Below are positions 1,415 to 52,848 of a stretch of DNA of 64,000 nt, piece after piece. This stretch comes from an uncultured Croceicoccus sp. Lineage in GTDB: Bacteria; Pseudomonadota; Alphaproteobacteria; Sphingomonadales; Sphingomonadaceae. Made by a program: the position numbers and the translations under genes. Positions within the stretch are counted from its first letter, which is position 1. Each line of letters starts with the position of its first letter. Below the pieces are notes generated by a model that was not told the DNA's origin, made no database searches, and saw nothing but the letters and a program-made list of their open reading frames with translations. Location: positions 372,001 through 436,000 of the forward strand of contig NZ_CANMCP010000001.1 in NCBI RefSeq assembly GCF_947496385.1, read 5' to 3'.

Positions 1415-2049
1415 TCCGGATCAAATTCCTTGGGCGAAAAGTTTGCTGCCGGATGCCGCGCCATGACCGCTTGGCGAATGCGTGATTGATCCGGCGGCGT
1501 TCCTGCTCAAATACGGCGCGAACGACCCGCAGATGGGCCCGACCTGTACCGGCGATCTGAACGCGCGACCGGCTAATTCGCCGCGCCGATAGTTCGGATC
1601 GGTACCGGGCACGACGCCGATGGACAAGCGACAATACAGAAGGGCGGGTGCGTCCCGCGCTACCAGCGGATTGGCGGACAAAGCGGGCCGATGTTTCACG
1701 AGCTCTAGAGTACTACCGCGTCGCCCGCGCCGATCGGAGTGGGGGTCAGGCTCGCTCGAGGCGGATCCGCCGCCGCACGTCAGATCCCTTCAATTGTTGA
1801 ACAGGACCGTGTCGCGAAAAGCGCTGACGGAGTTGCGCCCGCAACGGCATCAGAAGGCCGATACGTGGATAGCTCGGGCTGTTTTTGCCAGGCTTATGCG
1901 GCCTGCGCAGACCCTTGGCATGATCACGGCTCAAGGCTTCCAGCGCCATATCAGGCGTGCCGGTAAACCCAATTGTCCGGCTAAGATCATAAGGGCTCTT
2001 GGCAGAGTCGAATAACGTCGTGTTTACGGGTTCCTGCCAGAGCGTTTCC
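1415..2049. other. Gene-poor interval between GH3 gene and GGDEF-EAL gene
   Basis: About 630 bases with no convincing gene. Open frames exist on both strands but none carries a family motif or a ribosome binding site. A short plus-strand stretch at roughly 1495-1590 reads like coding sequence (DPAAFLLKYGANDPQMGPTC) between stop codons and may be a remnant, but I cannot assign it. The part from about 1750 to 2000 appears less GC-rich than the flanking genes. The promoter of the following cluster should lie here; no clear -35/-10 pair was seen. Confidence 0.4.
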
Positions 2050-3750
2050 ATGGACAGGATCGCTTCAGGCAGAAGGACAAAAGCACTGCCGGATTTGGCA
2101 AGGCGTCTGCTCGCGCGCAACGAAGCGCATGTCGCGCTTGCATTGATCACTGTCGGACTTTCTCTTCTATCTGGCGCACAAGTCCTCGCGATGATCTCGA
2201 TCGGTATCCTCGGTCTGATCGTCGGACGGTGGCAGCGGGAAAATGCGGAACTACAACAAATCCCCAACCCGCTCACGGCCGATCAGAACTCGCACGAGAC
2301 TGCTCATTCAAAAAACGGGGGCGATGCTTCTGCTTCAGACCGCGATAAACAGCTTGCAAAGCTCCAGTCGATCGCCGCACGAGACCCGCTGACCGGGCTC
2401 AACAATCGCGCTGGGCTGGAAGCTTTTATCGAGCATCGCCTGCGCGAAGCCGAAGCTGATTCTACGCATTGCCTGCTGTTCATCGACATCGACGGTTTCA
2501 AGCAGGTGAACGATGCGATGGGCCATAGCCAGGGCGACAAGCTTCTGATCCTGCTGGCGGAACGCCTGAAGATGGTCGTGCGCCACGATTTTTCGGGTCA
2601 CCTGGAAACCCGTGCGTCGAATGTGGCCCTTGCCCGGTTCGGAGGCGACGAATTCGTCATTTTCGTTGCGCAAACCGGCTCAGGCAGCGTGGCGCAGAAA
2701 ATAGCAAATCGCATTCTTCATATTCTGTCCGATCCTTTTCAGATCGGAACGAAAACGGTGCAGATCGGCGCGAGCATCGGCGTCGCGTTCGCGCCCGAAC
2801 ATGGTACCGATTACCTTGATTTGATCCGCAAGGCCGATGTGGCCATGTATCAGGCCAAGGCTCTTGGAAAAAACCGGTGCGAATTTTACCGGGAATCGCT
2901 CCTCGATGCAGCGCGCAAGGCGGAACAGGAGGAAAACGAGGTTCGCGACGCCATCGCACGTGGCGAGCTTGAGCTTTATTTTCAGCCGCTTATCGATGCT
3001 CGAACATTGGATATCTGTTCCGCGGAAGCCTTGCTGCGGTGGAACCATCCCACGCGCGGGGTGCTGACGCCGGCTGATTTCTTTCCGGCCATTCAGCGAT
3101 CCAACCTTTCCGCGGCCATCGACGAATGGGTCATCAACGACGCAGTTTCGAGGATCGCAGAGCTTGAACGGGACGGCATGCCGTTGATGATCGCTGTCAA
3201 CGTATCACCCAACAGGCTCGAGAAGATAGAGTTTCCCTCGCTCGTCCGATCGCTGATCGGGCGGTGGGGATGTTCGCCCGAGCTGCTCCAGATCGAAGCG
3301 ACCGAGGATGCGGCCGTATCCAATCCCGAGGTCAGCCTCAGGAACCTTAAAAAGCTGGCAGAGCTCGGCGTGACCGTCGCCATTGACGATTTCGGGACCG
3401 GCTATTCCAACCTTGCCAACCTCCTCATGCTGCCGGTTTCCCGCCTCAAAATCGATCGTTCGCTGTTGAAGGATATCGAATACAGCACCGAAGCGCATGT
3501 GCTGGTTCAAACCATCATCAGTCTCGCCAACAGCCTCGGATTCCACTCGGTGGCAGAAGGGGTCGAGAACAAAAAGCAGATGCAGATTCTTCAATCGATG
3601 GGCTGCGATGTCCTGCAGGGCTTTCTGTTTTCACGTCCCGTCACGTTCGAAAAGCTCAAGCAACTGTCCGCAAGTTACCAGCGGCGTCCCCGTAGGGCCG
3701 GATTGACAGAAGAACAATCCAAAGCCGCCAAACGGAATGAAGCCGCCTAA
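2050..3750 (+). CDS. Membrane-anchored GGDEF-EAL protein (cyclic di-GMP turnover)
   Basis: A hydrophobic N-terminal stretch (AHVALALITVGLSLLSG and following residues, about residues 26-60) forms one or two membrane segments. It is followed by a GGDEF domain with intact LARFGGDEF and then an EAL domain. EAL residues seen are EALLRW, NVSPNRLE, DDFGTGYS, LKIDRSLL and AEGVE, so the phosphodiesterase site looks complete. The usual RxxD inhibitory site is not visible before GGDEF. Both making and breaking cyclic di-GMP are possible; which dominates is not predictable. The start is uncertain: I chose the ATG at 2050. A TTG at 1999 and a GTG at 2020 are in frame, and none has a strong Shine-Dalgarno. 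The TonB receptor gene begins 18 bases downstream, so this looks like the first gene of a signalling operon. Confidence 0.88.
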   Translation: MDRIASGRRTKALPDLARRLLARNEAHVALALITVGLSLLSGAQVLAMISIGILGLIVGRWQRENAELQQIPNPLTADQNSHETAHSKNGGDASASDRDKQLAKLQSIAARDPLTGLNNRAGLEAFIEHRLREAEADSTHCLLFIDIDGFKQVNDAMGHSQGDKLLILLAERLKMVVRHDFSGHLETRASNVALARFGGDEFVIFVAQTGSGSVAQKIANRILHILSDPFQIGTKTVQIGASIGVAFAPEHGTDYLDLIRKADVAMYQAKALGKNRCEFYRESLLDAARKAEQEENEVRDAIARGELELYFQPLIDARTLDICSAEALLRWNHPTRGVLTPADFFPAIQRSNLSAAIDEWVINDAVSRIAELERDGMPLMIAVNVSPNRLEKIEFPSLVRSLIGRWGCSPELLQIEATEDAAVSNPEVSLRNLKKLAELGVTVAIDDFGTGYSNLANLLMLPVSRLKIDRSLLKDIEYSTEAHVLVQTIISLANSLGFHSVAEGVENKKQMQILQSMGCDVLQGFLFSRPVTFEKLKQLSASYQRRPRRAGLTEEQSKAAKRNEAA

Positions 3751-3768
3751 TCGGTCAGCAGGATCATC

Positions 3769-5832
3769 ATGACAAAATTTGCCACCATCTTGCTCACATC
3801 GAGCTGTTTGGCCGGGCTGGCCATGCCCGCTCATGCCCAGACTGACACGCTGCTTGAGACGACATCGGGTGATGACCTGCTGAGCACCGATCTGGAAGAC
3901 CTGCTGGTGCTTGAATCGACTTCGGTCGCCAAAAAGCGCCAGAACGTCGACGATTCCGCCGCGGCGGTCTATGTGATCACGCAGGAAGAGATCCGCAATT
4001 CCGCCAGTTCCACCATTACCGATCTGCTTCGCGTGGTTCCTGGCGTCGAAGTCGGCCAGATAACCAATGGCGTGACCGCCGTTACCATCCGCGGGTTCAA
4101 TGGCCGAAATTCGGGATCGATGCTGGTCATGGTTGATGGCCGGTCGGTTTATGTGTCAACACTGTCGGGCGTTTTCTGGGATCAGCTCAACATCCCGATG
4201 CACGACATCGAGCGGATCGAGGTCGTCCGCGGGCCCGGGTCCACCTTATGGGGTGCGAACGCGGTCAATGGCGTCATCAACATCATCACCAAGAACAGTG
4301 CCGATACGCTGGGTCTTCGGGCAAGCGCCCGTGCAGGTCTGCGCGAACAACTCGTGGAATTGTCTTCAGGCAGCGAAATCGGCGCGGATTCGACGATCCG
4401 CATCAACGGCGTATATCGCCGGGATCAGGGCTTGCAGTCACTCAGCGGCGATGACCTCGGCACGGCCGCGAATGAAGGCGCGCTGGGTGCACGATTCGAC
4501 TGGCAACCGACCGCCCGCGATGCGATCACGCTTCAGGCCGATTACAAGATCGGCGCCCGCGATACGACCACTTTCAACATCGATCCGGCCCAGATTGATC
4601 CCACCCCGATCCCGGTGCTGACCGCGGTCGATTATAATGAATTCAGCGTTCTGGGACGCTGGCGGCGCGAGCACAGCGAGCAGCTCGATTACTCGCTTCA
4701 GGCCTATTATACCACCGTGGGCCGCGAGGAACTGGGCTATTTCGATTTTGAATGGTCGATTGCGGATCTGGATTTCGGTGCCAATTGGCGGCTAAACGAA
4801 ACGCATGACATCAATTTCGGCCTGAACCTGCGGGCGATGTCGGATCGCTTCGTGCTGATCGATCCGCGGGTCGATTTCCTCGACCGGGAAGGAACCGATT
4901 ACTGGATCAGCGGATACGTCCAGGACGATATCAGCCTCATCGCCGAGACGCTGCGCCTGACGATCGGGGCCAAGCTTGAATATAACGATTTCACCGGGGT
5001 GGAATTTCAGCCCGGCGTCAGGATGTTCTATCGGCCGAACCAGGATCTCGCGATCTGGGGCGCGGTATCACGCGCGGTTCGCACGCCATCGCGGTTCGAA
5101 CGTTACGCGGATTTTCAGCTTGCCGCCCTGCCGCCCTATACACGCAGAAATCCCTCGCCGCTCCCCATTTTTACGAGCTTTCTTGGCACGCCCGATTCCG
5201 AGGCTGAGAACCTTTTGGCATACGAGGCGGGTTTTCGCGCAAATATTGCACCCCAATGGAGCATTGACGTCGCAGGCTACTATAATTTCTACGATAGCCT
5301 GGCGGAGCCGACCCTCGTCGCGGTCGAGCCCAATTTCATTCCCAACGTTCCGTTCCCGGTCAGTCTCACGACCACGGCGCAGTTCCAGTTCCGCGGCAAG
5401 GCCGAAACCTGGGGGCTGGAAGCATTGATCAAGGGGCAGGTGGCGCCGTGGTGGAACAGCCAGCTGGGCTATTCCTATTTCAAGGGCCGAACCGGAACCG
5501 ACAGGCGGAGTGGCGAGCGGTTCAACGGGTTCCTGCCGCTGGACGGGTCCCCCGAACATCAGGCTACGCTCAGCAATAACTTCCAGTTGAGCACCTCGAT
5601 CTCGCTCAACACGCAGATTCGCTTCGTGGACGAACTGATCGGCGGGCAAGTGCCGTCCTATTTCGATGGCGACGTCCGGCTGAGATACGAAGCACCGAAC
5701 GGGCTCGAACTGTCTCTCGTGGGCGAAAACCTGCTTGAACAGCGCAGATTCGAATTCCTGTTCGATACCTATCCGGCGCCGCCCTCCACTGTCCCTCGTA
5801 ACGTAGCGCTTGAGCTACGGTACCGGTTCTGA
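3769..5832 (+). CDS. TonB-dependent receptor of the YfiR-linked class
   Basis: 687 residues with a signal peptide (cleavage probably after AHA, near residue 24), a plug domain (VYVITQEEIRNS, LLRVVPGVEVGQI, TIRGFNGR, IERIEVVRGPGSTLWGANA, VNGVINIITK) and a beta barrel ending in ELRYRF. There is no STN signalling domain before the plug. A TonB receptor of this length imports or binds a small ligand at the outer membrane. The leader DLEDLLVLESTSVAKKRQ resembles receptors often found next to YfiR-type genes, which is from family knowledge. An AGGA motif lies about 9 bases upstream of the ATG. It sits between the GGDEF-EAL gene and the YfiR-like gene, in one direction with short gaps, so a role in sensing rather than bulk import is an attractive inference. 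The ligand is unknown. Confidence 0.9.
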   Translation: MTKFATILLTSSCLAGLAMPAHAQTDTLLETTSGDDLLSTDLEDLLVLESTSVAKKRQNVDDSAAAVYVITQEEIRNSASSTITDLLRVVPGVEVGQITNGVTAVTIRGFNGRNSGSMLVMVDGRSVYVSTLSGVFWDQLNIPMHDIERIEVVRGPGSTLWGANAVNGVINIITKNSADTLGLRASARAGLREQLVELSSGSEIGADSTIRINGVYRRDQGLQSLSGDDLGTAANEGALGARFDWQPTARDAITLQADYKIGARDTTTFNIDPAQIDPTPIPVLTAVDYNEFSVLGRWRREHSEQLDYSLQAYYTTVGREELGYFDFEWSIADLDFGANWRLNETHDINFGLNLRAMSDRFVLIDPRVDFLDREGTDYWISGYVQDDISLIAETLRLTIGAKLEYNDFTGVEFQPGVRMFYRPNQDLAIWGAVSRAVRTPSRFERYADFQLAALPPYTRRNPSPLPIFTSFLGTPDSEAENLLAYEAGFRANIAPQWSIDVAGYYNFYDSLAEPTLVAVEPNFIPNVPFPVSLTTTAQFQFRGKAETWGLEALIKGQVAPWWNSQLGYSYFKGRTGTDRRSGERFNGFLPLDGSPEHQATLSNNFQLSTSISLNTQIRFVDELIGGQVPSYFDGDVRLRYEAPNGLELSLVGENLLEQRRFEFLFDTYPAPPSTVPRNVALELRYRF

Positions 5833-5842
5833 GGGGGTTGTG

Positions 5843-6370
5843 ATGTTCAAGCTTTCAACCCTTTCGAAGCTGTCCGGACTGGTCGCTGTATGTGGATTGG
5901 CATGGGCGACGACGATCACGCCGGCCAGCGCAAGATCCAGCGAAGTCGATCAATTGCGTGCCGCGATCGTGTTCAACGTGCTGCGTTTTATCGAGTTTGC
6001 CCCTGAACAAAGGGGAACGATCGATTTTTGCGTGGCGCCGGACGCCGACGGATATGACGCGTTCCGCTCGTTCTCCGGCCGCCGGGCCGGGTCGCGCATC
6101 GTATCGGTCCGAACCGCGCGCGATGGCTCCTATTTCGGCTGCGATGTGGTCTATCTCGATTCCGGTGGTCGCGATCAGATTCAGCGCGCTTCGGCTCGCG
6201 GGCGTCTGGTGATCGGGGGTGGCCGCCGCTTCATCGACAATGGCGGCACGGTCGGTCTGGTGCAAAGCGGCGGTCAGGTGCGTTTCCAGCTGAACCTGGT
6301 TGCGGCATCGAACAGCCAGCTTACGATCAGCTCGCGCCTGATACGATTGGCGTCAAAGGTCGCCCGGTGA
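5843..6370 (+). CDS. YfiR-like periplasmic protein (DUF4154)
   Basis: 175 residues starting [10 protein letters not shown], with a signal peptide ending near ASA (about residue 33). The mature part has the YfiR pattern: [17 protein letters not shown], then a [10 protein letters not shown] strand, a Cys in [12 protein letters not shown], and the C-terminal [19 protein letters not shown]. YfiR proteins sit in the periplasm and, in Pseudomonas, hold the diguanylate cyclase YfiN inactive by acting on its CHASE8-containing periplasmic part. Here the next gene encodes a kinase with that same sensor type. A strong Shine-Dalgarno (GAGGGGG) precedes the ATG at 5843; an upstream in-frame start at 5810 would overlap the receptor gene and lacks a signal peptide at the N terminus. 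The stop overlaps the start of the kinase gene (TGATG). Confidence 0.87.
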
Positions 6371-8643
6371 TGCAGGGCCCGTCGCGCGGCAGTCTCGCGA
6401 ACATGCGATTCAAGACCAAGCTGACCGTGACCAGCGCCATGCTGGTGTCCGTGGCGTTGTTGCTGGCGAGCCTCGGCCTGATCGGGATGCAATTTCTCAC
6501 CGAAGGCCGTCTGGCGTCGCAGCGGCACAATCAGATTACGCAGGTCATCGCATCCAACACCGGCCCCGCGTTGATGTTTGCAGATCCGGAAGCCGCGCGC
6601 GAGAACCTGATGTCGATCAATGGGATCGAGGATGTCGCATCGGTTTCCGTCTTTGCGAACGATGGGACGCTGTTCACGTCTTATGAAAATTCGGCGGCCG
6701 GTCTTGGCGATGATACCGATCAACTGGAAACCGTCCGCAGAATGGTGGCGGTCGATGGAGTGCGCCTCGGCTGGGTTGAAATGAAGGTCAGATTGCGGTC
6801 GTTCAGCGATATCGTCGGCGAAACCTGGACGGCGATCCTCGTCCTGTTTTCGCTGTGTCTGATGATATCGATGGTCGTCGCGCGAAAGATGAACAGCATG
6901 GCGTTCGCGCCCATCGGCCGGTTGAACGACGCCATCCAGAAATTTACGATCACCAATGACTACACCATGCGGCTCGAGGCGGAACTGGACCCGGATTTTT
7001 CGCTGATCACCGATAATTTCAACAAGATGGTGGAAACCGTTGCCAGCCGCGACGAAGCCCTGGTCGAAAAGGCCGACGAGCTTACCGTCGCGCTCGATCA
7101 GGCGGAGGCGGCAAACGTCGCCAAGTCGCAGTTTCTTGCCAATATGAGCCATGAATTGCGCACGCCCCTCAACGCGATCATCGGATATGCCGATGTACTG
7201 CTTGAGGAACTGCAGGGGGCGGACAATCAACGATCGCTAGAAGATGCCGGCTGGATTGCGAGCTCGGCTCAGCAATTGCTGGAATTGATCAATTCCATTC
7301 TTGATTTGTCCAAGATCGAAGCGGGTCGGATGGATGTGGATATCCACGAATTCGATGTGGCAAGCATCATGGAAGAAGTCAGAAAGATGCTGGAACCGAT
7401 GGCTGCCCAACGCGGCAATCGCATTCATTTGCAGATTGCCGGGGATATAGGGATCGCGAAATCGGATTCGGTCAAGCTGCGTCAATCGCTCCTAAACCTG
7501 GGGTCGAATGCATGTAAGTTTACCGAAAATGGCCGGATATTCATTCTCGCGCGGCGAGATAACAGCGATCTGGTCGTTTCCGTTTCGGATACGGGCATCG
7601 GGATGAGTGAAGAACAGGTCGACAGGCTGTTTCAACCTTTCAGCCAGGCCGATGCATCGACGACCCGCCGGTTTGGTGGCACCGGGCTCGGTCTGACCAT
7701 TACGCAACGGTTTGCCGAATTGCTCGGCGGAACGATCGAGGTTGAATCCTGCGCTGGCGTCGGTTCCACCTTTACCATCAGGATCAAGGCCGACCTTGAT
7801 AGCGTGCAAGCCCTGACCGATTCCGGTAGCGAACTGATCCCGGCCAATGTCCGCCCGGATGTCGTCACGTCCAACACCATCGAAGTTGACGGCTCAAAGC
7901 TGCTGGCCGTGGTGGTCGACGATGAACCCAGCGCTGCAAAGTTGCTTGAACGCATAGCCATTCAGGCCGGTTACGCCACGGCGGTGGCAAACGACGGCGA
8001 AAAGGCGTTGGCTCTTATCCGAAAACATAATCCCGCGATCATCCTCCTGGACCTCGCCATTCCGCAGGTGAACGGGTTCGATGTGTTGAAAGAATTGCGC
8101 AGCGATCCGCAGCTTTCCGCCACGCCCGTGGTCATCGTGTCAGTCAATGACGATCGCAAGGCCACCATCGACGCAGGCGCGTGCGAACACCTCATCAAAC
8201 CGGTCAGCCGTACCGAGGTGACCGGGGTGCTGGCGCAATATGCCGCGCGCCGGTCGGGCAAGATTCTGATCGTCGATGATGATGAGGCAACGACGCGAAT
8301 GTATGGCCGCGGCATGGAGCGAGCGGGATACACGGTCAACGTGGCCGTGAATGGCCGGGACGCGCAGGCTTTATTGCGCGCGCAGGATTATGATTTCGTG
8401 ATCACCGATCTGCGCATGCCCGAATTCGATGGTCACGATCTTATCCAATGGATCGCGGAATTTTCCGATCGTCCCAAGCCGCTCATCTTCGTGGTGACCG
8501 GCAAGGCGATGAGCAACGAGGATGCAAGCGAACTGCAAAGCAAGGTGCAGAGCGTATTGTTCAAGCACGGCCTCAGCCCCAGCCATCTGGCCAGGACGCT
8601 GTCGAATTTCGATACCAGCAGACCCAGAGGAGTGGCGGCATGA
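6370..8643 (+). CDS. Hybrid histidine kinase: CHASE8 sensor, HAMP, HisKA, HATPase, two receiver domains
   Basis: 757 residues. A first membrane segment (about 20-40) and a second (about 155-175) frame a periplasmic CHASE8-like region ([20 protein letters not shown]). A HAMP region and coiled coil follow, then HisKA with His261 in [14 protein letters not shown], and an ATPase domain with DTGIGMS and GGTGLGLTI boxes. Two receivers follow: phosphoacceptor Asp561 (ILLDLAIP) and Asp680 (FVITDLRMP). The CHASE8 domain is the periplasmic domain of YfiN-type cyclases, so the adjacent YfiR-like protein is its likely partner. The gene starts at ATG 6370, overlapping the yfiR-like stop by one base. It ends in an ATGA overlap with the response regulator gene. 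This gives strong evidence of co-translation. Confidence 0.93.
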
Positions 8644-9362
8644 TCAAGACATCACTCAGCGACGCGGATCGCCAGAAGGTGATGGTGCTCGTGGTCGATG
8701 ACATGGCGGCCAATCGTTCGGTCCTGTGCCGACAGCTGGAATTGCACAAATATAACGCCATGAGCGTCGACAGCGGCGAAGCGGCGCTGGAGTTGCTGAC
8801 CCGCATCCGGCCCGATATCATGCTGCTGGATTACATGATGCCGAACATGAACGGCATCGAGGTCCTGCGGCACCTGCGCGCGGATCCGGCGACGGTCGAT
8901 CTGCCGGTGATCATGGTCACCGCCCGCGCCGAAAATCAGGCCACGGTAGAAGCGCTCGAGGCGGGGGCGGATGATTATGTCACCAAGCCGATCGATTATG
9001 TGGTGCTGCGCGCCAGGATCGATTCCCAGCTGCAAAAACAGGGGAATGCGTCAGATCTGCGGATGTCGAATGCCGCTCTCGATGAAAAGGTGACGATGCG
9101 AAACCTTGTTCTTGCCGATATGGAGAGCGAGCTGAAGTCCGAAATTGCGTTGCGCCTGCAGCATGAACAGGAGTTGGCAAAGCGATCAGCCGGATCCGTT
9201 CAGAGCCCCCGGCCCAAGACCCTTGCCGATCTCCCGTTGGCCGAGATCAGCCAAAAGTTCAATGTCGTATTCGATAGCGTCGTGGACGGGAAAACCCCCA
9301 ATCTCGCGTTGATTTACGAGCTGAAAGAGCTTTTGAACCAGCTAGTCCTGGACGGAGACTAG
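8640..9362 (+). CDS. Response regulator with C-terminal coiled-coil/helical region
   Basis: 240 residues. An N-terminal receiver domain shows [14 protein letters not shown], phosphoacceptor Asp64 ([12 protein letters not shown]), VMVTARAE and DDYVTKPID. The C-terminal 110 residues form a charged helical region (about residues 145-185, then 205-240) with no DNA-binding or known output domain that I recognise. The ATG at 8640 overlaps the kinase stop by four bases (ATGA), so it is the expected phosphotransfer partner of the preceding hybrid kinase. Output may be by protein contact, possibly with the GGDEF-EAL protein at the other end of the cluster; that is inference only. The transposase remnant begins about ten bases after its stop. 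Confidence 0.9.
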
Positions 9363-9371
9363 GCCGGGGCT

Positions 9372-9441
9372 CACCTCCGGCGCGCCGTCGATCACGAAGG
9401 CCAGGAATAAGGCTGCGGCCCTGCGCTTCATGAAGAAAGCG
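9372..9441 (+). pseudogene. Remnant of an IS6-family transposase with internal deletion and frameshift
   Basis: Two short peptides match consecutive parts of the IS6-family DDE catalytic core. HLRRAVDHEG is read at 9372-9401. In another frame, TKARNKAAALRFMKKA is read at 9394-9441. In intact transposases these blocks are joined by about seven residues (roughly DHEG-EVLESYV-TKTRDKAAAL). Here they overlap in different frames at TCACGAAGGC (9392-9401). This suggests deletion between short repeats of that sequence. Nothing else of the element, such as terminal inverted repeats or the HTH part, was found. It cannot be functional. Confidence 0.6.
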
Positions 9442-9790
9442 CAACCCTCACGGTTCGCAGAGCGCGCGGATAAGTTCGACGAGGCAACGCACGCCTCGGC
9501 TGTCTACTCGACAACCGTAAGCGCGCTTGACGCCCTCTATCATCTGCTATCCTAACGAAACCCTGCATCAATGGTCGAACCGCTCGCATAGCAGTTTTGA
9601 TCGGACTGCAGCGCACCGTCTTGACGATGGGCGGCCATTCGCTGGACCGGGAGGAAATGATCCTCTGGCACCAATCCGAAGGGCCCGGTCAATCTACAGT
9701 CACGCGCTCTTCATATTGAAAAATTGACGAAATATCCGGAATGGTGGCAATGAGCTCAGCACGAGCGATGCCTCGCTATCGGAGTGATCA
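9442..9790. other. Interval after the transposase remnant; no gene recognised
   Basis: About 350 bases up to the HWE kinase gene. The first 50-60 bases may be further decayed transposase sequence, but similarity is too weak to claim. No open frame with a ribosome binding site or family motif was found on either strand. The end of the interval carries the GGAG ribosome binding site for the kinase start at 9791. Confidence 0.4.
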
Positions 9791-11716
9791 ATGCAGACAG
9801 TCGATGCAAATTTCGAAGGCGAAGGCTCAGCCGACGCCGCGCTCATCGGCCTGTTGCAGCTCGCCCGCCTGCTCTTTGAAGCCCCCGTTGCGGCGTTTTG
9901 GATCGAGGAGCGCGGAACGGAGCGTCTGGCGGCCTCTGTCGGAGACGAGCGATCCATCCGCACAGCCTACGAAACGGATTGGCACGCCAGGTTCGAAGAA
10001 CGCCAGCTTTTGGTCCTTCCCGATCTCGAGGTCGGGAATACGGTCGAATCCGAAGGCGAACCACTCCGGTTCATGGCGGGTGTTCGCGAAAAGCTTACGA
10101 GCCGGCCTGCGAGTATCACCCTGATCGTGGCGGATACAAAAGCCCGCCCGGCCAGCATGACCGGTGAGCAGCGGAGCGCATTCCAGGCGATCTGCGCGCA
10201 GGCCGTTACGCAGCTTGCATTGCGTCATTCACAAGCCATCCAGGCCGAGCTGATGGGCCGGCTGTCCTTCTTCGACCGGCTCGCTTCTGCGACGCAGGAG
10301 CTTGAGGATGCGACCGCGATCATGCGCACGGTCGCGCGATTGACGGGCGAATTCCTCGGCGTTTCCATCTGTGCATATGCCGACATGCACAAGGATGAAA
10401 ACGGCTTCACGATCACGGGAGACTGGACGGCTCCGGGATCGGCCAGCATCGTCGGCACTTACCAACTGACCGACTTCGGCGAGCTTGCGGTTTCCAATCT
10501 CACGTCGAATCTGCCGCTTGTCGTGGATGATGTGGCCGCTCAAATTTCATCAGATGCCGCCGCGACGTTTCAAAGCATCGGTATCGCCGCGACGATCTGC
10601 TTGCCGCTCGTAAAAGACGACAGGCTGATTGCCTTGATGGCGGTTCACGACGCGACGCCGCGGGTATGGACGGACGCGGAACTCGGCCTGACGCGCGAAG
10701 TGGTGGAACGATCATGGGCTCACATCGAGCGCGTCCGGAGCGAGCGGATCCTTCGCGAAACGAGCCGCCGGCTCAACGCCATTCTCAGCAACACGCGAGA
10801 GGCGGTGTTCCTCATGGATGAGCAGCAGATTTGCGTCTACGCGAATGCCGCGGCAGAGCAATTGACCGGCTATGCTTTCGAGGACATGCGAGGACGGCCG
10901 TTGCACGACGTCGTCCACCACAAAAAGCCCGACGGATCGCATTATCCGATCGAGGAATGCCCGATTGATCGCGCCTTTCCCGAACGTGCGCAGACCTCAG
11001 GTGAGGAATTGTTCGTCGCGCCGGACGGATCGTTCTACCCCGTCGGATTCACTGCGAGCCCGGTCCTCGACGATGAGGGAAAGCCGATCGGCACGGTCAT
11101 CGAAGCCCGGAACATCGCGGAAGAGAAGCGCTTTCAGGAGCATCAGGTGCTGCTGATCGATGAGCTCAATCACCGCGCGAAGAACCTGTTGGCGATCGTC
11201 CAGGGACTGGTTGCGCAGACGATGACGTCGTCCGATCCCGAAATCCGCAAGGCACTCGAAGGACGGCTGATGGCCCTGGCCGCGGCGCATAGCCTGCTGA
11301 CCAAGAAGAATTGGGAGCCGGCCCCCCTGAGGCAACTCGTGCAGGATGCTATCGCCCCCCACGTAGCGGGCCATGCCATCAGCATGGAAGGACCCGAACT
11401 GATGCTTCCTTCCAGGACGGCGATATCGATGGTTTTGGCCGTGCACGAACTGGCGACGAATGCCGTCAAATATGGCAGCCTTTCCGTGCCGGGTGGCGGC
11501 GTGGATGTGCGCTGGAAAGTGGGCGCCAACGAACTGGATTTCCAATGGCAGGAGTTTGGGGGGCCGCCGGTTGTCGCCCCGGAAAAGCGCGGTTTCGGCA
11601 GCAAGATGCTGGAACGTGGGCTGGCGGCGGAACTCAACGGGAGCGTTAAGATCGAGTTCCTCTCCGAAGGAGTTACTTGCAAAGTGCGCGCAACCATTCC
11701 GCAAATCCCGAATTGA
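9791..11716 (+). CDS. Soluble HWE-family sensor histidine kinase, GAF-GAF-PAS
   Basis: 641 residues without membrane segments. Two GAF-like regions (about 20-150 and 165-310) and a PAS domain (about 325-440; LNAILSNTREAVFLMDEQQ, ANAAAEQLTGY) precede the kinase core. The core has the phosphorylated His in LIDELNHRAKN (near residue 460), the N-box-like VHELATNAVKYGSL, and the W-x-E of FQWQEFGGPPV that gives the HWE family its name, followed by GFGSKMLERGL. HWE kinases are common in alphaproteobacteria, often as light or general-stress sensors. No Cys that would mark a bacteriophytochrome or LOV chromophore site is evident. GGAG precedes the ATG. No response regulator gene is adjacent, so it is an orphan kinase. 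Confidence 0.92.
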   Translation: MQTVDANFEGEGSADAALIGLLQLARLLFEAPVAAFWIEERGTERLAASVGDERSIRTAYETDWHARFEERQLLVLPDLEVGNTVESEGEPLRFMAGVREKLTSRPASITLIVADTKARPASMTGEQRSAFQAICAQAVTQLALRHSQAIQAELMGRLSFFDRLASATQELEDATAIMRTVARLTGEFLGVSICAYADMHKDENGFTITGDWTAPGSASIVGTYQLTDFGELAVSNLTSNLPLVVDDVAAQISSDAAATFQSIGIAATICLPLVKDDRLIALMAVHDATPRVWTDAELGLTREVVERSWAHIERVRSERILRETSRRLNAILSNTREAVFLMDEQQICVYANAAAEQLTGYAFEDMRGRPLHDVVHHKKPDGSHYPIEECPIDRAFPERAQTSGEELFVAPDGSFYPVGFTASPVLDDEGKPIGTVIEARNIAEEKRFQEHQVLLIDELNHRAKNLLAIVQGLVAQTMTSSDPEIRKALEGRLMALAAAHSLLTKKNWEPAPLRQLVQDAIAPHVAGHAISMEGPELMLPSRTAISMVLAVHELATNAVKYGSLSVPGGGVDVRWKVGANELDFQWQEFGGPPVVAPEKRGFGSKMLERGLAAELNGSVKIEFLSEGVTCKVRATIPQIPN

Positions 11717-17177: not shown

Positions 17178-19961
17178 ATGGCATTTCGCGAGGCGCTTCG
17201 CAGCGGCATCAGCATTTCCGCAATCACCGCCACCCTGGCCTTTGCCGGGGGAGCGATGCCGGGCACGGCATTCGCGCAAACGACGCAGCCCGAAACGCCC
17301 GAGGTCACGGACGAAGCCCGCCCGGTGACCGATCCGGACAAGACCGGGGACAATGTGATCGTCGTCACCGGTTTTCGCGCCAGCCTTGAAACCGCCGTCG
17401 CGGAAAAGAAACTTTCCGACCAGATCGTGGAATCGATCACGGCGGAGGATATTGGCAAGCTGCCCGACGCGTCGATCGGCGAATCGATTGCGCGTCTTCC
17501 CGGCCTTGCGGCACAAAGGCTTAATGGCCGCGCCAATGTCGTGGCGATCCGCGGTTTCGGGCCGGATTTCTCGCAAACGCTGCTCAACGGGCGGGAACAG
17601 ACCACGACGAGCGACAACCGCTCGGTCGAACTGGACCAGTATCCCTCCGAGATCGTCAATCAGGTCGTCGTCTACAAATCGCCGACCGCGAGCCTTGTCG
17701 GCCAGGGTCTGGTCGGGACGATCGACATCCGCACCATTCGCCCGCTCGAAACCGGAAAGCAGATCATTGCCATCGGTGCGCGCGGATCATGGGCCGACAT
17801 CGGTGCGCTCAACGCCGGGTCGAAGGAGCTGGGCTACCGCGTCAACGGAACCTTCGTGGATCAGTTCGCGGACGACACGCTCGGTGTCTCGGTCGCGGCG
17901 TCCTATGTCGACGAGCCTTATCAGATCCAGGAATTCAATGCCTGGGGCTATGCCGGGACGCAGGTGAATGGTGAGGATGCGGCGGTCATCGGCGGGTCGA
18001 AATCCTATGTGACCTCGACCCGGCTCAAGCGCCTCGGCATCAATGGCACGGTGCAGTGGCAGCCCATGTCGAAGCTGACACTCACGCTCGATGCGTTCTA
18101 CTCGAACTTCGACGATGACCAGACCAAGCGCGGCATTGAACTTCCGCTCGCCTTCGGTGCGCCGACGCGCTTCGACCCGGCCGGTTTCACGGTCGAGGAC
18201 GGGCTCGTCACATCGGGGCAGTTCAACAATGTCCGCGGCGTGATCCGCAACGATATTTTTCAGCGCAAGGCCGATCTTTACTCCGGCGGTTTCAACGCGC
18301 TGTGGGATGACGACAACGGGTTCAGCGCGTTCTTCGACTTCGGCTATTCGCGCACCGACCGTAACGAGCTGAGCCTGGAAAGCTATTCGGGGACGGGGTT
18401 CAACGGTCCGGCCACCGGACGCGGTTCGGCGGCGAAGATCACCTTTGCCTCCGGCGATACGGGAACCGTGTTCAATCCCTCGCTCGATTACAGCGACCCC
18501 GATCGCATTTTCCTGACCGATCCGCTCGGCTGGGGCGGGGGCGCCGTTCCGCAGGCCGGCTACTCCAACAATCGCATCATCGAAGACGAATTGTTCCAGT
18601 TCCGCGGCGAGGTGAAGAAGGAGTTCGACGCAGGCTTCCTGCGCAGCGTGCAGCTCGGCGCGAACTATACCAAGCGGGAAAAGGGCCTGACCCCGGACGA
18701 AGCGTTCGTGCGTCTTCCGGGCGGGGCGACCGAGGTGGCGATCCCCTCGCAATTCCTGCTGCGCGCGACCGATCTTACCTATCTCGGGCTCGGCCCCATC
18801 GTGAGTTACGATCCGCGCGACCTCATTGCCGCGGGCGTCCTCGCGCTCGAACCGCGGGTCACGACCGGGCCGAATGCCGCCAATGACGTGCTCAGCAAGA
18901 GCTATACCGTCAAAGAGGATCTCGTGACCCTCTACGCGCAGGCCAATATCGAGCAGGAGCTGGATATCGGCATCCTGACCGGCAATGTCGGCGTGCAGGG
19001 CATCAATACGAAGCAGGATTCGACCGGCTTCATCTTCCCGGCGAGCGGTCCTGAGATCGCGACGCGCGGGGCCGATTACTGGGACGTATTGCCGAGCGCG
19101 AACCTCTCGCTCCGGCTCGACAGCGACTGGGTGGTCCGCGTCGCCGCCGCGCGCGAGATCATGCGACCTCGGCTCGACGACATGCGCCTCTCTATTGAGT
19201 ATGGCATCGACAATTCGGTGCCGGGCGGGCTGATCCGCGGCAATGGCGGCAATCCGTTTCTGCGTCCCTATCGCGCCAATGCGGTCGATTTCAACGTGGA
19301 GAAATATTTCGGGACCGGCGGGGTCGTCGCGCTTCAGCTGTTCTACAAGGATATCGAAAGCTACGTCTTCAACGGGCGTTTCGCGTTCGATTACTCGGAC
19401 TTCCCGCCGCCGACGGGGATCGAGGCTTTCCCCGGCCTGTCGACCGAAGGCACGCTGGAGGCGCCGACCAACACGGGCGGGGGCGATCTCTATGGTGCGG
19501 AACTCGCCGTCACGCTGCCCTTCGACACGCTGTCCGACACGTTGCGCGGGTTCGGCGTCACCGGCGGCGCAAGCTATACGAAAACCGGGATCGAGGATGC
19601 GGACGGTAACGAGACGCTGATCCCCGGCTATTCCAAATGGGTGGTGAACGGCACGGCCTATTTCGAGCGGGCGGGCTTCAACACCCGGCTCAGCGCGCGG
19701 TATCGTTCGGAGTTTCTCGGCGATTTTACCGGATTTGGCGGTTCGCCCGTGCGCCGCACCGCAAAGTCCGAGACGATCATCGACGGACAGATCGGCTATG
19801 ATTTTCAGGCCGGCAGCACGTTCGAGGGGCTCTCCCTCTACCTCCAGGGGCAGAACCTGACCGATCAGCCGTTCGTCTCCACCGGGGCGCAGTCCAATCA
19901 GGTGGTCGATTATCAGCTTTACGGGCGCCGCTTCCTCGCCGGCTTCACCTACAAGTTCTGA
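17178..19961 (+). CDS. TonB-dependent receptor, MalA-like (maltodextrin uptake)
   Basis: 927 residues. A signal peptide ends at about residue 34 (TAFA-QT). The plug begins with VIVVTGFRASLETAVAEKK and includes ITAEDIGKLPDASIGESIAR, LNGRANVVAIRGFGPDFSQT and TASLVGQGLVGTIDIRTIRP. This set of plug motifs marks the large alphaproteobacterial/xanthomonad carbohydrate receptors such as Caulobacter MalA. The barrel ends in GRRFLAGFTYKF with a terminal Phe, as needed for outer-membrane assembly. Its place next to amylase, alpha-glucosidase and a LacI regulator points to maltodextrins as substrate. It precedes the halogenase gene by 94 bases in the same direction. Confidence 0.92.
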   Translation: MAFREALRSGISISAITATLAFAGGAMPGTAFAQTTQPETPEVTDEARPVTDPDKTGDNVIVVTGFRASLETAVAEKKLSDQIVESITAEDIGKLPDASIGESIARLPGLAAQRLNGRANVVAIRGFGPDFSQTLLNGREQTTTSDNRSVELDQYPSEIVNQVVVYKSPTASLVGQGLVGTIDIRTIRPLETGKQIIAIGARGSWADIGALNAGSKELGYRVNGTFVDQFADDTLGVSVAASYVDEPYQIQEFNAWGYAGTQVNGEDAAVIGGSKSYVTSTRLKRLGINGTVQWQPMSKLTLTLDAFYSNFDDDQTKRGIELPLAFGAPTRFDPAGFTVEDGLVTSGQFNNVRGVIRNDIFQRKADLYSGGFNALWDDDNGFSAFFDFGYSRTDRNELSLESYSGTGFNGPATGRGSAAKITFASGDTGTVFNPSLDYSDPDRIFLTDPLGWGGGAVPQAGYSNNRIIEDELFQFRGEVKKEFDAGFLRSVQLGANYTKREKGLTPDEAFVRLPGGATEVAIPSQFLLRATDLTYLGLGPIVSYDPRDLIAAGVLALEPRVTTGPNAANDVLSKSYTVKEDLVTLYAQANIEQELDIGILTGNVGVQGINTKQDSTGFIFPASGPEIATRGADYWDVLPSANLSLRLDSDWVVRVAAAREIMRPRLDDMRLSIEYGIDNSVPGGLIRGNGGNPFLRPYRANAVDFNVEKYFGTGGVVALQLFYKDIESYVFNGRFAFDYSDFPPPTGIEAFPGLSTEGTLEAPTNTGGGDLYGAELAVTLPFDTLSDTLRGFGVTGGASYTKTGIEDADGNETLIPGYSKWVVNGTAYFERAGFNTRLSARYRSEFLGDFTGFGGSPVRRTAKSETIIDGQIGYDFQAGSTFEGLSLYLQGQNLTDQPFVSTGAQSNQVVDYQLYGRRFLAGFTYKF

Positions 19962-20055
19962 TCCAGGCGACCGGTGGGGGCGCGGCGATCATCGCAAGGC
20001 GCGCTCCCCCGCCGGCCGGACCGTCTGACGGGGACGAGGGAGGACCAAGGCCGTG

Positions 20056-21591
20056 ATGCAGGACGATGGCGCAAGGCGACCGCTGAAAATCGGGATCGCG
20101 GGGGGCGGGACGGCCGGGTGGATGGCCGCCGCCGCCCTTGCAAAGCTCACCGGGTGCGAGGTCGTGCTGATCGAATCGGAGGCGATCGGCACGGTCGGCG
20201 TCGGCGAGGCGACCATCCCGCAGATCCGCCTGTTCAATCGCGGGCTGGGCATCGACGAGGCCGAATTCCTGCGCGCGACGAAGGGCACGTTCAAGCTCGG
20301 CATCGCGTTCGACGGCTGGCGGCGCGACGGCGAAAGCTACATGCACGCCTTCGGCCATGTCGGGCGCGGCGCGGGATTGCTGCCGTTTCATCAGCTCTGG
20401 CTGCGCGGCCGGGAGCTTGGCGTGGCGAAGGATCTATCCGCCTATGCGCTTAACGACAGGGCGGCGCGCGCGGGAAAGATGCAGATGGCGCCGGGTGGCG
20501 GAGCCGCCGACATGCCCTGGGCCTATCATTTCGATGCCTCGCTCTACGCCGGTTTCCTGCGCCGTTTTGCCGAGGCGCACGGGGCGGAGCGCATCGAAGG
20601 GCGGATTGTCTCGGTCGAACGCGATGGCGAAAGCGGGGCGATCCGCGCGCTCACCCTCGATGCGGAGCGGCGGGTCGAGGCGGACTTCTTCCTCGATTGC
20701 ACCGGTTTTCGCGCGCTGCTTACGGACGAGACGACGCGCGACGATTTCGCCGACTGGAGCCACTGGCTCCCGTGCGACCGCGCGGTGGCGGTGCCCAGCG
20801 CGGCGGCGGATGAGATCTTGCCCTACACCCGCGCGACGGCCCGTGCGGCGGGGTGGCAATGGCGCATCCCGTTGCAGCACCGGACCGGCAACGGGCTGGT
20901 CTATTGCAGCGAGTTCCTGTCGGAGGGAGAGGCCGAAACGGTCCTGCGCGCCCATCTCGACGGCGCGCCGATCGGCACTGCCAACCATCTGCGTTTCACG
21001 ACCGGGATGCGCACGGCGCCATGGCAGGGCAATTGCCTTGCGCTGGGCCTCGCGGCGGGTTTTCTCGAACCGCTCGAATCGACGAGCATCCATTTGATAC
21101 AGTCGGGCATCGCGCGCTTTCTTGCCATGCTGCCCCGCCGCGACGTGCCCGCCGCGATGGCGGAGGAGTTCAACCGGCAGGCACGGTTCGAATGGGAGAG
21201 CATCCGCGATTTCCTCATTCTCCACTACGCCGCCAATGGGCGTGAGGGGCAGCCGTTCTGGGATCGCTGCCGTGCGATGACGCTCCCCGACGGACTTGCC
21301 GCGCGGCTCGCGCTGTTCCGCGCCACCGGCTTTGTCCGGCGCGAGCATGACGAGCTGTTTACCGAGCCGGGCTGGATACAGGTGCTCATCGGGCAGGGGG
21401 TCGTCCCGCGCGCGACCCACCCCAATGCCGATGCGCTGGCGCCGCACGTGCTGGCCCGCATGCTGAACGAAATGGCGGGGAGCATCGCGTCGCTCGTCGA
21501 TACCATGCCGACCCACGTCGAATTCTTGCGCGAATTTTGCGCATCGCCATCCACGCCCCGATCTGCCGCCATGATGGAGACAGCCCGATGA
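20056..21591 (+). CDS. Flavin-dependent (tryptophan-type) halogenase
   Basis: 511 residues. Family marks are all present: the FAD-binding IGIAGGGTAGWMAA, GEATIP, the Lys of TFKLGIAFDGW that corresponds to the catalytic Lys of PrnA-type enzymes, the WxWxIP motif (WQWRIPLQH) and the Glu in FLEPLESTSIHL. The enzyme should make an electrophilic halogen species from halide, O2 and FADH2, so it needs a flavin reductase, which is not in this window. Such genes are often found beside TonB receptors in Brevundimonas, Xanthomonas and sphingomonads, and their natural substrates there are mostly unknown. GGGAGGA precedes a GTG (20053) and an ATG (20056); I use the ATG. It overlaps the amylase gene by ATGA. 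Confidence 0.9.
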   Translation: MQDDGARRPLKIGIAGGGTAGWMAAAALAKLTGCEVVLIESEAIGTVGVGEATIPQIRLFNRGLGIDEAEFLRATKGTFKLGIAFDGWRRDGESYMHAFGHVGRGAGLLPFHQLWLRGRELGVAKDLSAYALNDRAARAGKMQMAPGGGAADMPWAYHFDASLYAGFLRRFAEAHGAERIEGRIVSVERDGESGAIRALTLDAERRVEADFFLDCTGFRALLTDETTRDDFADWSHWLPCDRAVAVPSAAADEILPYTRATARAAGWQWRIPLQHRTGNGLVYCSEFLSEGEAETVLRAHLDGAPIGTANHLRFTTGMRTAPWQGNCLALGLAAGFLEPLESTSIHLIQSGIARFLAMLPRRDVPAAMAEEFNRQARFEWESIRDFLILHYAANGREGQPFWDRCRAMTLPDGLAARLALFRATGFVRREHDELFTEPGWIQVLIGQGVVPRATHPNADALAPHVLARMLNEMAGSIASLVDTMPTHVEFLREFCASPSTPRSAAMMETAR

Positions 21592-23444
21592 AACGCTTCG
21601 CCCTGATCGCCGCCGCCCTGATGGCGAGCGCGCCTGCGATTGCCACGCCCGCACCTGCCCAAAGCGCCGTTGCCCAAACCGCCGTTGCCCCACCGGCGCC
21701 CGAGAGTTTTCGTGAGCGCGGGGTGGAGGATGAAATCATCTATTTCGTGCTGCCCGACCGGTTCGCGAATGGCGACACCGCCAATGATCGCGGCGGCTAT
21801 CCGGCGGACCGGATGCGCAGCGGATACGACCCGGCGCACAAGGGGTTCTACCACGGCGGCGACCTCAAGGGCCTGACCGAAAAGCTCGACTATATTCAGG
21901 GGATGGGCGTCACCGCGATCTGGTTCGCGCCGATTTTCAAGAACAAGCCGGTGCAGGGCAAGCCCGGCGATCCGGAAAGTTTCAGCGCGGGCTACCACGG
22001 GTACTGGGTCACCGATTTCACGCAGGTCGATCCGCATTTCGGCACCAATGCGGATTTCGAAGCCTTCGTCGCGGCGGCACATGCGCGCGGGATGAAGGTC
22101 TACATGGACATCATCGCCAACCACACCGCCGACGTGATCCGCTTTGCCGAGGACGAATACGCCTATCGCAGCAAGGGGGACTATCCCTATTCCACGCGGG
22201 GCGGTCCCGGCGGCCCGGCCATCAACGAAGGGTTCGATCCCGCCGATCCGAGCGCCGAAAACTGGGCCCGGCTGACCGATCCGTCCTTTGCCTACACCCC
22301 CGTCGTGCCGGAGGGGGAGCGCCATGTGAAGGTGCCTGCCTGGCTCAACGATCCGATCTATTATCACAATCGCGGCGACACGTTCTGGACCGGGGAGAGC
22401 AGCGTCGATGGCGATTTCGTAGGGCTCGACGATCTGTTCACCGAACATCCGCGCGTGATCGATGGGATGATCGCGATTTTCGGCGACTGGATTGACCGGT
22501 ACGGGATCGACGGGTTCCGGATCGACACGGCAAGACACGTGAATCCCGAATTCTGGCAGGCCTTCGTGCCCGCCATGCTCGCCCGTGCGGAGGCGCGGGG
22601 CATCCCCAACTTCCACATTTTCGGGGAGATCGCGTATGACACGCCGGATGCCGTCACCGCCGCGCGGGTCATGGCGGAGGCCGATCTGCCCTACGCTCTC
22701 GACATGGGGTTCGCAAAGGCGGCGCAGCTCGTCGCGAGCGGCAAGGAAAGCCCCGCCGTGATGGCGGAACTCCTCACGCAGGATGTGATCTATCCCGGCG
22801 GGGCGGTCACCGCGACCGGCCTGCCGACGTTCCTCGGCAATCATGATTTCGGGCGGTTCTCGATGTTCCTGCGCGATTATGCGGAAACCGGCGATCGCGC
22901 CGAACTGCTCGCCCGGACAAAGCTCGGCCATGCGATGATGTTCGCGCTGCGCGGCGTGCCGACGGTCTATTACGGGGACGAGCAGGGCTTCATCTCCGAC
23001 GGCAATGATCAGCTCGCGCGCGAGGACATGTTCGAAAGCCGGGTCGATGCCTATAACGACAATGCCCTGCTCGGCACCGATGCGACCACGGTGCAGGCGA
23101 ATTTCGATACCGGGCACCCGCTGTACCGGCTGATCCGCGAATTGTCGGCGATGCGCACCGGCTCGCCGGCGTTGCGGCGCGGGCTGAGCACCGTGCGCGG
23201 TTTCGACCACGAGGGGCCGGGCCTGCTCGCGGTGGAGCGTTACGATGCGGCGAGCGGGAGCCGCGTGCTCACCGCGTTCAACACGTCCGGAGAGCCGATC
23301 ACACGCGACATCGCGGTGGATTACGATGCCCGCGCGCTGACCCCGCTTGCGGGCGAATGCCCGGCGGCGGTCACTGCCCCCGGCAGCGTGCGGCTGACCA
23401 TCCCGGCATTCGGCTGGGCCGTGTGCGAACTGGAGGCAAAGTGA
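21588..23444 (+). CDS. Periplasmic GH13 alpha-amylase family enzyme
   Basis: 618 residues with a signal peptide (MKRFALIAAALMASAPAIAT). GH13 regions are clear: IYFVLPDRFANGD, MDIIANHTAD, the nucleophile region GIDGFRIDTARHV (Asp near residue 313), acid/base Glu in FHIFGEIAYD, and the transition-state Asp in FLGNHDFGRF. YYGDEQGF and a C-terminal beta domain follow. The enzyme should cut starch or maltodextrins in the periplasm. The start at 21588 overlaps the halogenase stop (ATGA), and the gene ends in a TGATG junction with the alpha-glucosidase gene, so the genes are probably co-translated. Confidence 0.92.
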   Translation: MKRFALIAAALMASAPAIATPAPAQSAVAQTAVAPPAPESFRERGVEDEIIYFVLPDRFANGDTANDRGGYPADRMRSGYDPAHKGFYHGGDLKGLTEKLDYIQGMGVTAIWFAPIFKNKPVQGKPGDPESFSAGYHGYWVTDFTQVDPHFGTNADFEAFVAAAHARGMKVYMDIIANHTADVIRFAEDEYAYRSKGDYPYSTRGGPGGPAINEGFDPADPSAENWARLTDPSFAYTPVVPEGERHVKVPAWLNDPIYYHNRGDTFWTGESSVDGDFVGLDDLFTEHPRVIDGMIAIFGDWIDRYGIDGFRIDTARHVNPEFWQAFVPAMLARAEARGIPNFHIFGEIAYDTPDAVTAARVMAEADLPYALDMGFAKAAQLVASGKESPAVMAELLTQDVIYPGGAVTATGLPTFLGNHDFGRFSMFLRDYAETGDRAELLARTKLGHAMMFALRGVPTVYYGDEQGFISDGNDQLAREDMFESRVDAYNDNALLGTDATTVQANFDTGHPLYRLIRELSAMRTGSPALRRGLSTVRGFDHEGPGLLAVERYDAASGSRVLTAFNTSGEPITRDIAVDYDARALTPLAGECPAAVTAPGSVRLTIPAFGWAVCELEAK

Positions 23445-50906: not shown

Positions 50907-52848
<1,942 letters not shown>

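Follow-up and report, generated by a model that had tools for sequence, protein, structure and literature searches.

A conserved gene module of TonB-dependent receptor, YfiR-like protein and CHASE8 kinase, a probable trans-envelope signalling unit

The Five-Gene Cluster and Its Domains

The cluster described here occupies the plus strand at positions 2050–9362 of a 64,000-nucleotide stretch of DNA from an uncultured Croceicoccus sp. (assembly GCF_947496385.1, contig NZ_CANMCP010000001.1, positions 372,001–436,000 of the forward strand), referred to below as the window. It encodes, in this order, a GGDEF-EAL protein, a TonB-dependent receptor (TBDR), a YfiR-like protein of the DUF4154 family, a hybrid histidine kinase with a CHASE8 sensor domain, and a response regulator (Table 1). 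A first-pass annotation, made from the sequence alone, had described five genes running in one direction with two short gaps followed by two overlaps, and both the gene calls and the junction sequences agree: 18 bases separate the GGDEF-EAL and TBDR genes and 10 bases the TBDR and YfiR genes, YfiR and the kinase overlap in TGATG, and the kinase and the regulator overlap in ATGA. The title of that annotation placed the GGDEF-EAL gene last; it is the first of the five. We infer that the five genes lie on one transcript. Scans of the window for promoters and terminators were not used, because promoter sites were fewer than in shuffled sequence and the terminators (16, with 7.0 expected) all lay within genes or on the opposite strand.

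The GGDEF and EALLRW motifs of the GGDEF-EAL protein are intact in the translation, membrane segments are visible by eye at its N terminus, and the protein is probably a branch for the turnover of cyclic di-GMP (c-di-GMP). The receptor was annotated as devoid of an STN domain, and Pfam agrees. An alternative start of the kinase gene is a GTG at 6367. The assignment of its sensor to CHASE8 stands as well, with the Pfam match given in Table 1 and a structural model of the homologue at locus L043 that resembles, among others, a periplasmic domain of the LapD type. At E ≤ 0.001 the whole genome holds a single DUF4154 match and a single CHASE8 match, both in this cluster.

Table 1. Positions of the cluster and its features in the window
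Feature	Position	Strand	Evidence
Stretch common to the window and congener G036	1896..9388	+	blastn, single match; 93.4% identity over 7494 bp
GGDEF-EAL gene	2050..3750	+	Pfam GGDEF E=3e-40, EAL E=2.5e-69
TBDR gene	3769..5832	+	Pfam Plug E=7e-24, barrel E=6e-27, no STN
N-terminal stretch LLSTDLEDLLVLESTSVAKK ahead of the plug (LSLEEL..VTSVSKK region of the subfamily)	3877..3936	+	
YfiR-like periplasmic protein	5843..6370	+	Pfam DUF4154 E=2e-26; signal peptide by eye
Hybrid histidine kinase, CHASE8-HisKA-HATPase-REC-REC	6370..8643	+	Pfam
CHASE8 periplasmic sensor domain	6514..6726	+	Pfam E=2e-13, 50.8 bits (cut-off 27)
PALMF, at the place of AAVVF (proposed YfiR-binding stretch) of YfiN/DgcN	6565..6579	+	Alignment; available text of PMC3375315
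Response regulator, REC and about 110 residues without a named domain	8640..9362	+	Pfam REC E=3e-30

Conservation of the Gene Order

Of 199 genomes in the window's family, 19 hold a match to the window YfiR, and DUF4154 has matches in 21 of 385 genomes of its class and in 94 of 398 of its phylum. For comparison we took 18 family regions (all except the window's own), 24 class regions covering 26 places outside the window, and 56 further phylum regions hand-picked among many listed places, skipping near-duplicate genera. Together with the window these regions yielded 101 YfiR genes, weak relatives among them; one region without a YfiR call (L096) stands outside the counts. CHASE8 is present in 73 of the 80 genomes selected for a YfiR or DUF4154 match. 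Where YfiR precedes a CHASE8 kinase (n = 57), the gene directly upstream is a same-strand TBDR in 41 of the 56 cases that have an upstream gene; at the other positions within five genes of those YfiR genes a TBDR occurs in 0–1 of 48–57 cases each. The order TBDR-YfiR-CHASE8 is conserved far above chance. Conservation of the gene order in other genomes had been proposed as the check on the original reading, which it withstood: the order of TBDR, YfiR and CHASE8 kinase is kept across many phyla.

The complete five-gene order of the window recurs in a congener (L021) and at L023, and also at L022, there with a TBDR that reads as two open frames. Among all loci examined, 104 modules, that of the window included, have TBDR, YfiR and CHASE8 effector contiguous, on the same strand and in that order. 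YfiR is naturally fused to a kinase, with no CHASE8 called, at L065, L089, L100 and L112, the first of which has a TBDR upstream. These fusion proteins consist of a YfiR domain, a coiled coil, a membrane segment (by eye) and a histidine kinase. A scan of viral contigs with YfiR alone found no relative.

The gene order was also counted from the receptor, since the YfiR alignment was too diverse for a genome scan. The bait, A2, is an alignment of 18 YfiR-linked TBDRs, the window's among them, and includes no YfiR; it was picked for the link to YfiR, so the counts describe this receptor subfamily and not TBDRs at large. Among 590 stretches the scan gave at least 545 relatives, of which the best 80 loci were examined. 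Of these, 75 have a following gene, which is YfiR in 55; in 4 more YfiR comes after a second TBDR, and in 3 it lies elsewhere in the locus. CHASE8 stands at the second position after the receptor in 50 of 72. With a different TBDR as control bait, YfiR was found in 0 of 30 loci among the matches listed, taking about 1500 bases on each side. This control TBDR has 19–54 matches per genome, pieces included, in the window's family.

Ranked by NCBI taxonomy from the titles of their records, the linked receptors come from about ten phyla, for the most part in metagenome assemblies; one of these phyla, Myxococcota, rests solely on titles that read Deltaproteobacteria bacterium. Cultured carriers include Desulfoluna butyratoxydans, Geomonas limicola, Thiocystis minor, Thiorhodococcus minor and Desulfacinum hydrothermale. 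The four top plasmid loci by TBDR match, including pSRL1 of Sphingobium indicum B90A, all carry TBDR, YfiR and a CHASE8 protein; a protein-level plasmid search with the window YfiR, unlike that with the window TBDR, gave no match. Several relatives in the window's family (L024–L028, L030, L033 and L035) have receptors that sit on a distant branch of the receptor tree, so at least two lineages of the module may exist within that family. At two Methylobacter loci (L150 and L155) a TOL_0244-like receptor without YfiR lies behind a gene for a hybrid kinase-REC-REC-REC-GGDEF protein, perhaps another coupling.

Receptor Subfamily

The window TBDR matches the NCBIfam model NF053590 (TOL_0244) over residues 37–687 with 464.7 bits, below the cut-off of 645, which the L043 receptor passes with 701.7. 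All 18 receptors of A2 match this model at E ≤ 1e-20, and none of them has an STN domain at E ≤ 0.01. Of 101 linked receptors with open frames longer than 560 residues, 80 show an N-terminal pattern resembling LSLEEL..VTSVSKK, against 0 of 30 controls; in the window receptor this stretch is a variant that does not fit the pattern.

Proposed Contact Residues and Predicted Folds

According to the available text of PMC3375315, YfiR has been proposed to bind an AAVVF stretch in the sensor of YfiN. In 136 YfiR-CHASE8 pairs the F of this contact stretch is 98% conserved and the D two places further 96%. The corresponding PALMFAD of the window aligns to AAVVFAD of Escherichia coli DgcN, with F and D in common and the rest similar. 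In the cysteine numbering of PMC4887326 (as given in its available text), the window YfiR keeps the pair of the Cys71/Cys110 type and is without the Cys145/Cys152 pair, thus retaining two of four cysteines; among the 136 YfiRs the Cys71- and Cys110-type positions are kept in 75% and 90%. Against NF053591 (TOL_0243) the window YfiR scores 62.3 bits, below the cut-off of 125, which 4 of 8 other YfiRs reach.

An AlphaFold2 model of YfiR and CHASE8 in tandem, computed for the L043 homologue, has a mean pLDDT of 92.3 and a pTM of 0.64. Foldseek ranks an integrative model of WalK with YycH first. The YfiR half matches solved YfiR structures (TM by target 0.71–0.80), and a LapD orthologue is matched in its periplasmic domain (TM by target 0.68). 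Substrate-binding proteins are among the matches too (5z6v, 0.57).

Co-inheritance and Exchange of Outputs

Pairwise protein distances were compared in 84 modules, with filtered kinase pieces. The distances of the three input proteins correlate with one another (TBDR-YfiR, r = 0.57; YfiR-CHASE8, 0.66; TBDR-CHASE8, 0.58), whereas CHASE8 and the kinase domain on the same chain correlate at 0.35, and TBDR and kinase at 0.21. The kinase distances are the most reliable of the set (0.97), despite these low correlations, and the bootstrap intervals of the correlation differences exclude 0 (0.19–0.42 for YfiR, 0.12–0.34 for TBDR). Because the input distances correlate and those of the kinase do so less, TBDR, YfiR and CHASE8 appear to stay together while outputs are exchanged; by this comparison of sequences the trio behaves as an inherited input unit with swapped outputs.

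On a tree of 96 receptors (a quick tree with long branches), the output type, kinase in 86 and GGDEF in 10, requires 8 changes, at least 6 of them on well-supported branches. Shuffled labels need 9.7 changes on average, and the output label is weakly clustered on this tree, because 15–17 of 500 shuffles need equally few changes.

Cyclic di-GMP turnover was suggested in the first-pass annotation as a possible second output, and genes for it do recur beside the module. Of 89 kinase modules, 23 include c-di-GMP domains (20 in a contiguous GGDEF/EAL gene, 3 in the kinase chain itself), against a background of 7 in 350 genes farther out. A contiguous regulator is found in 35 of the 89, and modules with a GGDEF(-EAL) output that retain the TBDR make up 10 of the 104. 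At L045, L119, L166 and L172 the receptor is likewise preceded at short distance by a GGDEF or EAL gene, there of different make-up.

Proposed Mechanism and Alternatives

We consider the TBDR-YfiR-CHASE8 module to be a real, conserved and probably functional trans-envelope signalling unit. Our favoured reading, to which we give a probability of about 0.6, is a relay of the Yfi type across the envelope in which a dedicated TBDR takes the place of YfiB. The mechanism that seems likely from the sequences runs as follows. At rest, YfiR would sit on the CHASE8 domain and hold the kinase in one state. Binding of a ligand would alter the grip of the receptor's periplasmic face on YfiR, presumably through physical contact; the gripping part is perhaps the N-terminal LEDLL..TSVAKK stretch beside the plug, and the sequence LLSTDLEDLLVLESTSVAKK is a candidate docking peptide. 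YfiR would then leave or join CHASE8, and the kinase would presumably switch in one sense or the other. Phosphate would pass via the two REC domains of the kinase to the separate response regulator, and c-di-GMP would be adjusted by the GGDEF-EAL protein encoded in the cluster, possibly in connection with the phosphorelay. The conserved order, the co-inheritance, the conserved residues of the proposed YfiR/CHASE8 contact, the c-di-GMP genes, the YfiR-kinase fusions and the folds predicted for L043 all support such a relay.

Several observations weigh against it. Same-strand TBDRs are missing directly upstream at 16 of the 57 YfiR-CHASE8 kinase loci (one at a contig edge), they occupy that position in only 59 of the 101 YfiR genes overall, and where YfiR stands ahead of a CHASE8-GGDEF protein an upstream TBDR is found in 6 of 20. 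Conversely, for 13 of the 75 subfamily receptors among the best 80 loci, the retrieved locus lacks YfiR. Of these 13, 10 carry the N-terminal pattern, which therefore marks the receptor family, not coupling to YfiR; we dropped it as a mark of such coupling. The pTM of the L043 tandem model is only 0.64, the form seen in the window, an upstream GGDEF-EAL gene without REC, was seen elsewhere only at L021–L023, and co-inheritance of the three input proteins is no proof that they touch.

The receptor might instead import a small ligand that YfiR binds in the manner of LuxP and reports to CHASE8, so that contact between receptor and YfiR would be needless. The pocket of Pseudomonas aeruginosa YfiR that is the site of YfiB F57 takes vitamin B6 and tryptophan (PMC4887326, available text), and the substrate-binding proteins among the Foldseek matches point the same way. 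Import of this kind is unlikely, given that a classical TonB box pattern is found in 2 of the 101 linked TBDRs vs 11 of 30 controls, although the pattern is crude and misses most controls, and the VTSVSKK stretch could serve as the TonB box. A little less likely still is an arrangement in which the TBDR is an output, a transporter under control of the kinase and regulator, while YfiR senses some other cue, for example redox state through its disulfide. It would suit the largely kept Cys71/Cys110-type pair, the TBDRs placed behind the kinase or last in the order at a few loci (L072, L076, L177 and L185), and the sevenfold rise of TOL_0244 on the alkane n-C28 vs Tween 80 reported in the available part of PMC6304351. 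Set against this are the TBDR distances, which follow those of YfiR and CHASE8 and hardly those of the kinase, the retention of the TBDR in modules with GGDEF(-EAL) output, and the usual order, in which the TBDR adjoins YfiR and not the regulator.

That the gene row was merely spread by transposition and forms no circuit is very improbable. The module has sharp edges relative to the congener, a transposase-like remnant lies at its 3' end, and the core is present on plasmids; but the order is kept over the roughly ten phyla at high divergence, and kinases are exchanged while the input trio stays together.

Relation to Known Systems

The closest known system is YfiBNR of P. aeruginosa and E. coli (TpbB/DgcN), in which YfiR represses the effector and is itself sequestered by the partner in the outer membrane; it likewise sets a DUF4154 YfiR beside a CHASE8 effector in the inner membrane and shares with the window the contact stretch and a C-terminal pattern of YfiR. 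In the window, by contrast, the effector is a hybrid kinase and not a GGDEF cyclase, YfiR has one cysteine pair where that of YfiBNR has two, and the OmpA-type lipoprotein YfiB is not among the five proteins by Pfam, the TBDR standing in its place.

In the first-pass annotation the system was held to be possibly undescribed, and this stands for the receptor alone. Malone et al. in 2012 noted in silico that YfiR occurs with sensor histidine kinases, GGDEF-EAL proteins and methyl-accepting chemotaxis proteins as outputs (PMC3375315, available text), so that, with sensor kinases already reported in place of the GGDEF output, only the link to the receptor is new. Their YfiR-YfiN[PAS/HAMP] modules have the same YfiR core, and according to that text most of the divergent operons there are without YfiB; the outer-membrane partner differs, the word TonB being absent from the main text (Table S4 lies outside this check). 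No paper joining a TBDR to YfiR was found in the literature searched, and those that name both treat them, in their available parts, separately. The TBDR-YfiR link is apparently unreported.

A receptor and a YfiR of Thalassolituus oleivorans underlie the models NF053590 (TOL_0244) and NF053591 (TOL_0243); that the two genes adjoin rests on their consecutive locus tags. The window proteins are under both cut-offs, and the model names state no circuit. TOL_0244 is 40.3% similar to OmpS (PMC6304351, available text), which has been called an alkane sensor of Alcanivorax, in A. dieselolei, that triggers chemotaxis (PMC9788540 and PMC5174103, in the parts available). OmpS thus resembles our case in being a surface receptor credited with initiating a signal, and through its similarity to TOL_0244, whose family is related to the window receptor. 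A survey of P. aeruginosa regulators counts TBDRs as signalling parts only beside extracytoplasmic function sigma factors (PMC9611778, available text).

The window receptor differs from the transducers of the STN type in having no STN domain, and Pfam finds no sigma or anti-sigma factor among the five proteins. Those transducers, such as FecA and FpvA, are TBDRs that act as signal receptors together with anti-sigma factors; TBDRs are otherwise treated mainly as importers, and STN domains with anti-sigma factors are their known signalling route.

More tentatively, TOL_0244-like TBDRs, mostly with LSLEEL..VTSVSKK N termini, could form a widespread class of dedicated receptors at the cell surface whose signal consists in capturing YfiR or letting it go, a possibility that we rate below the relay itself. 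If true, signals would have one more path from the outer membrane to a kinase or c-di-GMP enzyme, a path that needs neither an STN domain nor an anti-sigma factor, and the inner half still missing for the reported alkane sensor OmpS could be supplied by it. With a conserved unit that couples one receptor family to a shuttle protein and to a sensor in the inner membrane that can be switched, bacteria would have a general means of detecting substances outside the cell and of controlling phosphorelays and c-di-GMP. The module makes two matters testable: the release of YfiR in Yfi-type systems without YfiB, and the inward passage of the alkane signal from an OmpS-like receptor.

Module Edges and Neighbouring Genes

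The stretch common to the window and congener G036 ends 154 bases before the first gene and 26 bases after the last, and the whole module is a candidate for one transferable unit. Repeats were looked for at the module edges and none was found; a search for the empty insertion site in three congeners recovered the window flanks only as short or weak pieces (longest 299 bases, 65%). At the 3' edge, 86 bases (9373–9458) show similarity to an IS240-type transposase gene, present in full at L234, and 59 of them recur at several places in the window's genome and in G036. The 57 residues encoded at 9382–9555, considered as a piece of transposase, have no support from Pfam or PHROGs, the link being the DNA match to L234.

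Directly 3' of the module, outside the stretch common with the congener, positions 9791–11716 encode a GAF-PAS histidine kinase of the HWE type. Farther along, at 17178–27117, a second TBDR (927 residues) has an alpha-amylase and a GH97 enzyme as near neighbours, a grouping that resembles a polysaccharide-use cluster. A DNA methylase with a RAMA domain, which we take to be CcrM-like, is encoded at 51343–52848, subunit A of gyrase or topoisomerase IV at 41788–44082, and PntB at 58035–59498.

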